Shown here: piece by piece, positions 13,736 through 52,019 of the stretch | How the letters are laid out: every line of letters begins with the position of its first letter | Numbering within the stretch: the first letter of the stretch is position 1 | DNA from: Halorubrum sp. CSM-61 | GTDB taxonomy: Archaea > Halobacteriota > Halobacteria > Halobacteriales > Haloferacaceae | Assembly (NCBI RefSeq): GCF_003781945.1 | Contig: NZ_RJJW01000003.1 | Location: forward strand, 258,260 to 322,259 | Reading direction: 5' to 3' | DNA: 64,000 nt | Position numbers and translations under genes: made by a program | Notes under the pieces: generated by a model | The model's database searches: none | What the model was told of the DNA's origin: nothing | Seen by the model: only the letters and a program-made list of their open reading frames with translations

Positions 13736-13805
13736 ACGGCGCGTCGGCTCTTTATAAGTGTCTGAGTGGCCTCGTCGGAGGCTGTTTATGGCTCGTTGCT
13801 AGCGC

Positions 13806-14016
13806 GGTGAACACCTCCAAGGCCTCAGCCGCTCGGTACAACGTGTTCGACTCCCCTCCGGTGAACACCTCCAAAGCCCCAGCCGCTCGGTACAACGTGT
13901 TCGACTCCTCTCCGGTGAACACCTCCAAAGCCCCAGCCTCGTCGCTCCCTTCGGTCGCGACTCCCTCGCGCGTGCTGCTCGGCCGCGGTGCGGCCTCGCA
14001 GGCACGCGCCACCGCA
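13806..14016 (+). repeat. Modular hairpin element, copy A (internally shortened)
   Basis: This is a non-coding element of a family seen three times in this window. It has three head-to-tail starts of a 54-bp unit (13807, 13861 and a partial at 13915), each beginning GTGAACACCTCCAAAG and CCCCAGCC. It then joins directly to the conserved tail (13960-14016, ACTCCCTCGCGCG to GGCACGCGCCACCG). The middle part present in copies B and C is missing, as if lost between two CCCCAGCC(TCGTC) direct repeats. TTTATAAG (13751) and TTTATAGG (14027) flank it. The frames across it encode only repeat translations. Confidence 0.8.
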
Positions 14017-14108
14017 CAGTGTCGGTTTATAGGGGATCGTCGCTGTCACTCAAATATCTGCGCGAAGAACGAGACGCCGATAGGGGGTCCACCGGCGAGA
14101 ATCGCGGA

Positions 14109-20010: not shown

Positions 20011-20085
20011 TGCTCCGGCTGGGATTCGAACCCAGGTCATCACCGTGAGAGGGTGATATGATTGGCCGGACTACACCACCAGAGC
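20011..20085 (-). tRNA. tRNA-Glu (anticodon CTC)
   Basis: This 75-nt gene folds as a cloverleaf: acceptor GCTCTGG/CCGGAGC (one T-G pair) with discriminator A; the D-arm GTGTAGTCCGGCCAATCAT typical of haloarchaeal tRNA-Glu; anticodon stem TCACC/GGTGA with loop CTCTCAC, anticodon CTC; and T-arm CTGGG-TTCGAAT-CCCAG. CCA is not encoded and there is no intron. Confidence 0.95.
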
Positions 20086-22600: not shown

Positions 22601-23050
22601 GCGGTGGCGCGTGCCTGCGAGCGCCCTGATAAGGGCGCGAGGAGCACGCGCGAGGGAGTCGGGCGCGACGAGGGCGACCGAGGGGAGCCCGACAGACGCG
22701 CCCGACGAGGCTGGGGAGGCGTGAGGCTGCGGTGCTGTGCGGGGCGGGACTCAAAGGGGCAGCCGCGAGGCGGGCAGAGGCGACGCAAGCATCGCAACGT
22801 GTGAGTGGAGCGAACGAGTGAGGAGCGCAGCGAGCGTCTGCCCGCCTCGCGGCTGGGGCTTTGGAGGTCTCGTCGGCGACACCGATAGCGTCACTCACGT
22901 ACGGCCGAGCGGCTGGGGCTTTGGAGGTCTCGTCGGCGACACCGATAGCGTCACTCACGTACGGCCTCGCGGCTGGGGCTTTGGAGATGTTCACCGCTGA
23001 TCCGTCGGCAGGTGCTTATAAGCGAACGGCTGGGGCTTTGGCGGTGTTCA
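22601..23050 (-). repeat. Modular hairpin element, copy B (longest)
   Basis: This has the same block order as copies A and C, reading on the minus strand. It begins with four GGCTGGGGCTTTGG cores on the + strand at 22851, 22911, 22971 and 23028, two of them in an exact-period 60-bp tandem (22861-22920 and 22921-22980, differing at only two bases). Next is a perfect 18-bp stem (22760-22777 with 22838-22855), the block holding GGGACTCAAAGGGGCAGCCG, then GGTGCTGTGCGGGG and GAGGCTGGGGAGGCG, and the tail ending near 22601 with its own hairpin (GCGCCCTGATAAGGGCGC, 22621-22638). It is not coding, although several long frames cross it. Confidence 0.82.
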
Positions 23051-23076
23051 CCGCCGATCCACTACACCACCGATCC

Positions 23077-39038: not shown

Positions 39039-40136
39039 CTACTCGTCCGTGCCGGGGTCGTACACGTCCGGATTGGGTTCGCCGTCGACGTCGACGACCG
39101 CGAGCGCGCCGCGACGGCCGGCCCGCGAGAGCGCGTGGTCGACGATTTTGATCGGGCCCGGAACCGCGAGGTCCATCTCGCCGACCGTCGCCGTCCCGGG
39201 CGCGACCGGCGTCGTCTCGACGTATCGGCCGGGCGGGGAGACGAGGTCGCCGTCGCGGTACAGCCGCGACCAGACGTTCCCGATCGGGTGCCACGAGCTG
39301 CTGAGGTTCGGGCCGCCGTTCACGAAGAACACGCGGACGGTCTCGTCGACCGCGGCGTCGATCGCGCCGAGGCGGTCCGTCGTGAAGCCGTGGTGCTCGC
39401 CGTTGAAGACGACGTACGTCGGGTCCTCCGCGAGCATCGCCCCGTGGTCGAACGCGTGGTGGCCCTTCTCGCCCAGTTCGCCCTCGGTGTAGAGCTCGTG
39501 TTGACCGAGGTAGAGCTCGCGGTCCACCGCGGGCAGTCCCGCCTCGGGCTCGACGAGGATCGCGCCGAACATCCCGGCGCTGACGTGGTGGTCCATCGCC
39601 GGCACCGCGCAGTGGTAGGTGAACAGGCCGGGGAACTCGGCGCGGAAGCTGAGTTCCGCCGCGTCGTCGCCGGGCACGAGCGTCGTGTCGACGGCCCCGC
39701 CGCCGGGCCCGTACACGGCGTGGAAGTCCACGTTGTGGATGTCGTCGTTGTCGTCGGGCGGAACTTCGAACCGGAGGTTCACGGTGTCGCCCCGCCGGAC
39801 GCGGATCGTCGGCCCCGGGACCTGCCCCTCGAAAGTCATGTACTTGAACGTCACGCCCGGCTCGACCTCCGCGACGAGCTCCTTCGTCCGAAGGGTGACG
39901 TCGTGCTCGCGCGGCTCGTCCCAGTCGACGGGAGCCGGCACGTCGGTCGGGTCGGCCGCGATCCGGCCGACGTCGACGTCGCGTGCGGGGTCCAGTTCGG
40001 GGGCGACGTCCTCGCTCGCGTCCTCCGGCGGCGGCGTCTCCGCGTTCACCGGCGCACCGATACAGCCGGCCACCGCGCCGACCGCCCCGCTCCCGAGCGC
40101 TGCAACCATCTTCCGCCTGCTGAGGTCTTGTGACAT
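39039..40136 (-). CDS. nirK: Copper-containing nitrite reductase, first copy
   Basis: The 365-aa exported enzyme reduces nitrite to nitric oxide. Its N-terminus has a twin-arginine signal with lipobox (LSRRKMVAALGSGAVGAVAGC). Two cupredoxin domains follow. Type-1 and type-2 copper ligands are seen in NVDFHAVYGPGGGA (His), FTYHCAVPAMDHHVSAGMFG (His-Cys-His-Met) and LSSSWHPIGNVW (His). It shares the motifs and length of the copy at 50922-52019. MSQDLSRRK (40136) is preferred over an upstream ATG because it starts just before the signal. A degenerate DUF2249 gene follows it. Confidence 0.93.
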   Translation of the reverse strand: MSQDLSRRKMVAALGSGAVGAVAGCIGAPVNAETPPPEDASEDVAPELDPARDVDVGRIAADPTDVPAPVDWDEPREHDVTLRTKELVAEVEPGVTFKYMTFEGQVPGPTIRVRRGDTVNLRFEVPPDDNDDIHNVDFHAVYGPGGGAVDTTLVPGDDAAELSFRAEFPGLFTYHCAVPAMDHHVSAGMFGAILVEPEAGLPAVDRELYLGQHELYTEGELGEKGHHAFDHGAMLAEDPTYVVFNGEHHGFTTDRLGAIDAAVDETVRVFFVNGGPNLSSSWHPIGNVWSRLYRDGDLVSPPGRYVETTPVAPGTATVGEMDLAVPGPIKIVDHALSRAGRRGALAVVDVDGEPNPDVYDPGTDE

Positions 40137-45055: not shown

Positions 45056-45295
45056 GGAGGACATCAGGGAGTCTCTCGTTCCGATACGATCGGAGCGATC
45101 AGCTCGGATTCGGCCGCGCGGCTCTCACTGGGTGACCGCGCGCTCCGACACGCTACTTGTGTGCCTTCCACCGCTCCTGTGAGGGGCAGCGACGATCGAT
45201 TACGGGAGTGAGTATAGTACGTTGTGGGAGCGGTTGTTTATAAGCGATCGAGTGGTGTTGCTGTCGGCTGTTTATACGTGATCGGTGACGCTGTG

Positions 45296-45623
45296 GTGAA
45301 CACGTTCAAAGCCCCAGCCGCTGTGGGCGGCGCACGCTCGCTGCGGTGCTTGCGTCGTCATCAGAACGCTTCGCGTTCTGATTGGCTCACGAGAGCTCCG
45401 CTCTCGTGAACGCCTGCGCCGCCCGCAGCGACTGCCCTTTTGAGTCCCACCCCGCACAGCACCGCAACCGCGCCTCACGCCTCCCCAGCCTCGTCACCGG
45501 ACTACGTCCGGTTGCTAGCGAGAGCTTCGCTCTCGCCCTGTCGCTGGCGGCTGTCGCCGCCAGCGACTCCCTCGCGCGGTGCTGCTCGGCCGCGAAGCGG
45601 CCTCGCAGGCACGCGCCACCGTA
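45296..45623 (+). repeat. Modular hairpin element, copy C
   Basis: The order is: core with CAAAGCCCCAGCCGC (45307-45321); arm 1 of the long stem (45315-45334); a variable segment with hairpins at 45361-45381 and 45388-45408; arm 2 (45415-45434; 18 of 20 paired); CTTTTGAGTCCCACCCCG; GCCTCCCCAGCCTCGTC-type block; three more hairpins (45496-45512, 45518-45536, 45542-45565); and the conserved tail (45566-45623). TTTATAAG-type sequences flank it at 45238 and 45630. The 794-bp gap 45056-45849 otherwise holds only the left part of the adjacent cassette. Confidence 0.82.
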
Positions 45624-45740
45624 CTCGTTATTTATAAGCGATCGTCGCCGTCGCTCAGTATGCTTTAAATACGTCCTCTCCGCCACCGATCTGCAACACT
45701 CACTCCCGTCGTCGTTTAACCGACGCCGTTTAGCGATCTC

Positions 45741-50921: not shown

Positions 50922-52019
50922 ATGACGCTACTACCCAACATCGAACGGCGTTCGTTCCTGAAAGTGGCGGGCCTCGGCGGCGCGGCCGCGCTCGCCGGCT
51001 GTGCCGAGAACAGCGCCCCCACCGCGACGACCGACGCGGCCCAGACGTCGGACTCGTCCGAGGCCGCGTCGGTCGACGTGGACCGGATCGCCGCGGACCC
51101 GACCGACATCCCCGATCCCGTCGACTGGAACGAGCCGCGCACGCACGACATCACGATGGAGACGACGGAGGTGACCGCCGAGATCGAGCCCGGGGTCACC
51201 TTCGACTACATGACCTTCGAGGGGCAGGTCCCCGGGCCGATGGTCCGCGTCCGTCGGGGAGACACGGTGAACCTCACGCTGCGGAACCCCGAGGACAGCG
51301 ACATGCCGCACAACATCGACTTCCACGCCGTCTACGGGCCCGGCGGCGGAGCCGACGCGACGACGATCGCTCCGGGCGAGGAGGCCACCATCGAGTTCAA
51401 GGCCACCTACCCCGGTAGCCACATCTACCACTGCGCGGTCCCGAACATGGACCACCACATCAGCGCGGGCATGTTCGGCGCCATCCTCGTCGAGCCGAAG
51501 GAGGGGCTTCCGAAGGTCGACCGCGAGCTCTACTTCGGCCAGCACGAGATCTACACGGACAAGGGGGCGGGCGAGGAGGGCCACCACAAGTTCAGCCTCG
51601 AGGCCGCGAAGTCGGAGGATCCGACGTACGTGACCTACAACGGCGAAGCGTACGCCTTCACCGAGTCGGGGTACGGCCCGGTCCAGGTCGACCAAGACGA
51701 GCGGATCCGGATCTTCGTGTCCAACGGCGGCCCGAACCTCAGCAGCTCGTGGCACGCCATCGGCAACGTCTGGGACAAGCTCTACCGGGACGGTGACCTC
51801 GTCTCAGACCCGGCCCGGTTCGTGGAGACGACGCCGGTCTCGCCCGGTACCGTCACCGCCGCCGAGATCAAGACGCCGGTCCCCGGCCCGATCAAGCTCG
51901 TCGACCACGCGCTGACCCGCGTGGTCCGTAAGGGGATGCTCGGCGTCCTCGACGTGCAGGGCGAACAGAAGCCGGAGATATACGACCCCGATCCCGACGG
52001 CGATTCCGGCGGCGAGTGA
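50922..52019 (+). CDS. nirK: Copper-containing nitrite reductase, second copy
   Basis: The 365-aa exported enzyme has the same length and layout as the first copy. Its signal is ERRSFLKVAGLGGAAALAGC, with a lipobox and RR. Copper ligands are in NIDFHAVYGPGGGA, IYHCAVPNMDHHISAGMFG and LSSSWHAIGNVW. The linker MTFEGQVPGPMVRVRRGDTV is shared with copy 1. The C-terminus differs (DPDPDGDSGGE). It lies upstream of halocyanin-like, Sco, TlpA and CcdA genes, a natural electron-transfer and copper-assembly neighbourhood, so this may be the main enzyme. The two copies might be expressed under different conditions. Confidence 0.94.
   Translation: MTLLPNIERRSFLKVAGLGGAAALAGCAENSAPTATTDAAQTSDSSEAASVDVDRIAADPTDIPDPVDWNEPRTHDITMETTEVTAEIEPGVTFDYMTFEGQVPGPMVRVRRGDTVNLTLRNPEDSDMPHNIDFHAVYGPGGGADATTIAPGEEATIEFKATYPGSHIYHCAVPNMDHHISAGMFGAILVEPKEGLPKVDRELYFGQHEIYTDKGAGEEGHHKFSLEAAKSEDPTYVTYNGEAYAFTESGYGPVQVDQDERIRIFVSNGGPNLSSSWHAIGNVWDKLYRDGDLVSDPARFVETTPVSPGTVTAAEIKTPVPGPIKLVDHALTRVVRKGMLGVLDVQGEQKPEIYDPDPDGDSGGE

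Follow-up and report, generated by a model that had tools for sequence, protein, structure and literature searches.

BOX elements of Streptococcus pneumoniae (boxA-boxB(n)-boxC) are dispersed in about 100 or more intergenic copies, in which fixed modules are combined with variable tandem units of about 45–60 nt; they can fold and are non-coding. In the haloarchaeal field, halovirus HF2, a Halorubrum virus, carries class I intergenic repeats of 56–58 nt with AT-rich promoter motifs (PMC8707807), and one paper contains a mention of MITEs for Haloquadratum (PMC3119063). We analyzed three copies (A, B, and C) of an intergenic element in a 64,000-nt stretch of Halorubrum sp. CSM-61 DNA (the window). 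On balance, we favor the reading that they represent an ancient family of dispersed, non-coding intergenic elements in Halobacteria, one that is strongly amplified in Halorubrum and shaped by ectopic gene conversion and selection for the fold. The family is apparently undescribed. No paper describing it was found in the open-access literature, to which the search was confined, and this status is provisional.

In the orientation of copies A and C, the element begins with 1–7 tandem units, followed by a hairpin (P1), a linker, and two further hairpins (P2 and P3). The units are mostly 51–69 nt long, 57 nt being the commonest length, and each consists of GNNGAACACCTCCAAAGCCCCAGCCGCTCG and a spacer that often holds CTTATAAAT; many also contain a TATA box. 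The last core serves as the 5’ arm of P1, in which an outer helix (CAAAG/CTTTG) leads through a 3x3 internal loop to an inner helix that starts from CAG/CTG and has a long, variable distal part. The internal loop is fixed as CCC/CCC on the strand as given and GGG/GGG on the other. P1 is followed by GAGTCCCRCCC, a linker of ACCGC and ACAGC pieces, CCTCCCCAGCCTCG, P2, (C/G)TCCCTCGCGCG, P3, and the tail CACCG. In L015, L022, and L083, the linker contains an extra hairpin-rich insert (ACCGCCGGAAGACGGTC...). In L259 and L273 (from the genus of G169), it is hugely expanded into long ACCGC/ACAGC runs, and the match there excludes P1. A second architecture was seen in other families, where the P1 module often forms a tail-to-tail inverted pair with a constant start-to-start spacing of 42–43 nt (e.g., G266 C8 1811777(+)/1811820(-), L260, and L263).

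Direct reading of the regions confirmed the places and strands that the earlier note had given for the three copies. The single block order that it described holds for B and C but not for A, which lacks the long-stem (P1) and GAGTCCC blocks. Copy C (plus strand) has a single core, GGTGAACACGTTCAAAGCCCCAGCC (45295–45319), preceded by an outer TATA-like TTTATAAG (45237–45244) and a TATA-like TTTATACG (45271–45278). Its long P1 hairpin, with extra inserted hairpins, spans 45314–45434 and is followed by CTGCCCTTTTGAGTCCCACCCC (45432–45453), the linker GCACAGCACCGCA... with CCTCCCCAGCCTCG (45454–45493), a P2 region of several hairpins (45494–45566), and GACTCCCTCGCGCG, hairpin P3, and the tail (45565–45621). 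The TTTATAAGCGATCG at the outer box recurs after the tail, where a TATA-like TTTATAAG is located at 45631–45638. In copy B (minus strand), tandem units of 57, 60, and 60 nt (22864–23052), with a TATA-like CTTATAAG within unit 1 (23015–23022), precede the last core CAAAGCCCCAGCC (22851–22863). Then come the long P1 hairpin (22762–22853), the 3’ side of its outer helix with GAGTCCCGCCCC (22741–22762), the linker GCACAGCACCGCA... with CCTCCCCAGCCTCG (22706–22740), P2 as a GTCGGGCGCG...CGCGCCCGAC cassette (22658–22706), and P3 with the tail CACCG (22602–22651).

Copy A (plus strand) has three cores. An outer TATA-like box, TTTATAAG (13751–13758), and a TATA-like TTTATGG (13785–13791), the latter at the -38/-39 position peak described below, precede two 54-nt tandem units (13806–13859, with the degenerate core CAAGGCCTCAGCC, and 13860–13913). 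The last core joins the second CCCCAGCCTCG block directly, without P1 or GAGTCCC, so that core and second CCCCAGCC block are fused (13914–13938) and P1 and the linker are missing. A short P2 cassette (13941–13961), the conserved GACTCCCTCGCGCG (13959–13972), P3 (GCGCGTGC...GCACGCGC) with the tail CACCG (13968–14014), and a tail TATA-like box (14026–14032) follow. Because orthologous copies in relatives keep the missing blocks, we read copy A as an internally deleted member, as after a deletion between two CCCCAGCC repeats. The window also holds a tRNA gene on the minus strand (20011–20085). Four inverted repeat pairs (72–83%) between 39044–39977 and 51072–51999, about 11–12 kb apart, suggest an inverted duplicated gene.

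The count of three copies proved true of the window only. In the 3.72-Mb host genome, the tail CAGGCACGCGCCACCG (at most two mismatches) gave 121 matches and the core CCAAAGCCCCAGCC (at most one mismatch) 249, against 10 for the reversed control in each case, which excludes chance. The homologue search proposed in the earlier note, run here with patterns and BLAST, revealed abundant copies in Halorubrum and other haloarchaea. The element was present in all 52 Halorubrum genomes searched, and in a pattern scan of named genomes all of the matches listed were from Halorubrum or an uncultured archaeon. Across the host family, matches were found in 123 of 170 genomes, which represent 23 of the 28 genera; the genera other than Halorubrum have diverged copies, some with dozens. 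The most conserved block, GCCCCTTTNAGTCCCRCCC (at most two mismatches), was detected in 228 of 292 Halobacteria genomes, where one or two matches per genome mean little because the control gave about 0.3 per genome. Genomes with 20 to 141 matches come from at least six families. Within Halorubrum, the number of GCCCCTTTNAGTCCCRCCC matches ranges 20-fold, from 9 to 192 per genome, and several relatives have only about 10 copies. None of the viral contigs and phages searched contained the element, and the plasmid set searched gave two partial matches only. A virus- or plasmid-borne element was rejected on these grounds.

Support for a conserved structure is strong. P1 modules of Halorubrum and of other genera (33 in all) were aligned without gaps after the distal loops had been cut out. 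In this alignment, 94.9% of cells were paired compared with 66.6% after shuffling, and sliding the partners reduced pairing to 37–43% (at most 43.4%). Double changes were found in 15 of the 19 P1 pairs, and 146 cells had changed on both sides (45 when shuffled). P1 thus shows the compensatory base changes by which structured RNAs are recognized. The first pair is C-G in 283/283 Halorubrum copies and G-C in 16/16 copies from other genera; the search patterns fix this pair in each set, so the evidence is the contrast between the sets and not the uniformity within them. Of 171 copies, 170 have either A-T or G-C at the second pair. P2 and P3 pair too, with frequent base swaps.

Mismatches in P1 bear on the folding strand. 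On the top strand, A.C (117) exceeds G.T (43), and A.C corresponds to G.U on the other strand. This asymmetry comes mainly from one column (51 vs 1), the remainder being 66 vs 42 (p = 0.026); in P2 and P3, the counts are 59 A.C and 44 G.T. The wobble excess weakly favors the bottom strand as the one that would fold. The bottom strand also had the lower RNA folding energy in all 65 cases; we discount this as a guide because it probably arises from the G-rich linkers. The bottom strand reads GGGYGGG-ACTCAAAG-GGG-(P1 hairpin)-GGG-CTTTG. Its four conserved G-tracts around P1, two of which face each other between covarying helices, are all intact in 176 of 191 copies and could form a quadruplex. 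We regard as unlikely, though worth stating, that the family is an archaeal structural element of class-wide range whose basis is a quadruplex-duplex hybrid that drives cassette exchange. Such a hybrid, if true, would be stable in molar intracellular K+ and would stimulate recombination. Cassette exchange among some 200 fixed chromosomal sites would then amount to a dispersed, self-homogenizing structural system.

To compare sites, copies of other species were located by both flanks in the single-contig genome G022. Place and orientation were both conserved in 77 of the 92 comparisons that could be tested, or at 46 of 59 distinct sites; the comparisons are not all independent because loci A and B give several species each. 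In the other 15, the copy had the opposite orientation (2) or none was detected (13, one of which proved present on inspection). The contents of these fixed sites are hardly more alike than those of unrelated ones. Identity between orthologous and non-orthologous copies was 0.771 vs 0.756 for the body, 0.652 vs 0.635 for P2, and 0.793 vs 0.778 for P3, and the agreement of P2 and P3 hairpin classes at orthologous sites was near random. At the same time, identical P2 cassettes of at least 24 nt recur at different loci and in different species: 32 of 202 occur in more than one genome or record, and one in 12 genomes or records. P2 and P3 classes are weakly linked within G022 (p 0.047) and significantly when species are pooled, so the cassettes are not fully independent.

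A base-pair change has also spread in concert. In the copies examined from the clade of G045, G015, and G046 (support 0.97), the second P1 pair is uniformly G-C (29/29 in G045). The orthologous G022 copies mostly have A-T, and 15 distinct sites differ at both partners, a count that pools G038 and G033 with this clade. Fixed sites with moving contents suggest ectopic gene conversion together with selection that keeps the helices paired. Polyploid Haloferax is known to carry out gene conversion efficiently (PMC8223754, PMC11276520). Orthologous sequence could also be erased by rapid drift in unconstrained loops, but the occurrence of identical cassettes at unrelated loci speaks against drift as the whole cause. 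Our best reading is a structured intergenic element, selected for its fold and homogenized by cassette exchange through gene conversion. Among the roles suggested earlier, a recombination substrate fits in this sense, as exchange between copies is supported.

Whether the element moves is a separate question. It is unlikely, in our judgment, that it is a non-autonomous, MITE-like element still or recently mobilized in trans by a transposase, with the conserved sites representing only old insertions. High copy number, location between genes in either orientation, and the 20-fold copy-number range in the genus (9 to 192 matches) would all fit such an element. So would the 13–14-nt TATA-containing direct repeats present on both sides of 8 of 206 copies, an excess of about fivefold over the 0.7% expected. 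However, no terminal inverted repeats were seen: in the copies examined, the right end GCACGCGCCACCG does not repeat the left end GAACACCTCCAAAGCCCC in inverted form. Nor was there a clean empty site, since in the absent cases the whole intergenic stretch differs. The site conservation and the lack of viral and phage copies, with only the two partial plasmid matches, also argue against present-day mobility, and this part of the earlier note is unsupported. Past mobility must nevertheless have been needed to reach some 200 sites. The flanking direct repeats include 45237–45250 and 45631–45644 in the window and were also seen at L098, L245, and L200; they are partly locus-specific.

Genomic context was surveyed over 1.6 Mb of G022, with genes called by a crude composition-based method. 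Across this region, 122 clusters were found, or about one per 13 kb, split almost equally between the strands (62 and 60). Neighboring genes are convergent in 39 cases, tandem in 59 (26 same, 33 opposite), and divergent in 22, with convergent gaps enriched only about twofold. As copies occupy all three kinds of gap, a terminator or 3’-UTR element of one gene orientation was rejected. The clusters are more regularly spaced than if placed at random between genes (CV 0.744 vs 0.949 +/- 0.083; 2/2000), with 18 pairs under 5 kb where 35 were expected. Even spacing, the lack of orientation bias, and the intact G-tracts with their hairpin loop (176/191) would suit a regularly spaced chromosome-organizing site, whether as a target of a nucleoid or SMC-type protein or as a G-quadruplex barrier, and G-quadruplexes have been reported in Haloferax (PMC12873603). 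We nonetheless consider this role quite improbable: the loss of closely placed copies through recombination would account for the spacing as well as a function does, and several relatives have only about 10 copies.

TATA-like boxes are positioned and not merely close by, which refines the earlier mention of promoter-like sequences near all copies. They form a sharp peak 38–39 nt before the core and a second one after the tail; of 217 copies, 122 have such a box downstream, mostly at 7–10 nt. The usual archaeal distance from TATA box to start, applied to the first peak, would place transcription start near AACACC. Homology with other genera begins at this same AACACC. The tail box is too near the end of the element for a transcript starting exactly at P3.

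These boxes bring up a host-encoded multicopy structured RNA with its own promoters, for example a protein-binding or sponge RNA, whose copies act together and coevolve with one partner. We treat it as a tentative alternative. A top-strand transcript starting where cross-genus homology begins, the covarying fold, and the concerted pair switch are all consistent with it, and AT-rich motifs in Halorubrum virus repeats were shown to be promoters (PMC8707807). The wobble asymmetry, however, favors the strand opposite to the best-placed promoter, upstream TATA boxes are missing from the other-genus copies examined, and a 20-fold variation in copy number between species is awkward for such an RNA. 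Strict and permissive Rfam searches gave only the tRNA at gathering score, other matches falling far below threshold. The annotated-RNA match raised in the earlier note as a refutation was thus not found, and homologues, whose lack it had also named, are abundant.

Unit lengths point to a further candidate. Counting distinct lengths per element (n=137), 132 are multiples of 3 (51, 54, 57, 60, 63, 66, or 69 nt) and 5 are not. Remnants of a repetitive protein gene would explain this but are very improbable, as each frame is stopped in 32–76% of arrays, no Pfam or NCBIfam match was found, and body module lengths are not multiples of 3. A protein-coding tandem repeat was rejected for the same reasons, in agreement with the earlier view that no credible protein is encoded; the stop codons rule out a conserved reading frame. 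The multiples of 3 occur despite unrelated spacers and without an open frame (e.g., L034, L049, L119, and L143). Spurious ORFs do cross the element and invite false gene calls. A CRISPR array was rejected too, since most spacers of any one array are nearly identical, as tandem copies.

Each full copy forms a single-strand fold in which the two-part hairpin P1 and the conserved linker are joined to the exchangeable hairpins P2 and P3. We propose that, in polyploid, recombination-proficient cells, ectopic gene conversion would keep the copies alike while swapping hairpin cassettes at short conserved motifs, and selection would maintain the fold of each copy. The fold would more likely act from the strand opposite to the one in the earlier note, as RNA or single-stranded DNA. 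In Halorubrum, transcription of the element would be driven by the TATA boxes that lie within tandem units and behind the tail. Haloarchaeal genomes apparently carry an unnamed repeat family that occupies about 1 in 10 intergenic gaps in Halorubrum and is found across the class. Genus-wide site conservation combined with a near-complete loss of sequence orthology makes it a natural experiment on how gene conversion drives concerted evolution in polyploid archaea. The element is a concrete, genetically testable structure in laboratory-tractable archaea.

The family can be filed under a known kind, the dispersed structured intergenic repeat. Like the enterobacterial ERIC/IRU and RU sequences, it is dispersed, structured, about 100–200 nt long, and intergenic, but ERIC is one imperfect palindrome, whereas the present family combines three hairpins in a set order with tandem units and has mosaic copies. 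REP/BIME sequences with their RAYT transposases likewise place hundreds of hairpins between genes; their units are 20–40 nt with a GTAG-type foot, and no such foot was noticed in the haloarchaeal element. MITEs are also short, non-coding, and dispersed, but require inverted ends and target duplications, and inverted ends were not found here. The HF2 class I repeats share nearly the same unit length, intergenic location, and AT-rich motifs; they are viral, however, and the P1–P3 body is unmatched in phages. BOX is the closest analogue in layout, a likeness of architecture with no sequence relation claimed. Both have a variable number of tandem units beside fixed blocks (here 1–7 units, mostly of 51–69 nt, and a constant body). 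Unlike BOX, the present element is archaeal, has three hairpins, two of them exchangeable cassettes, and carries TATA boxes inside its units. It also spans a whole class and exchanges cassettes at fixed sites, a set of features that is its own.
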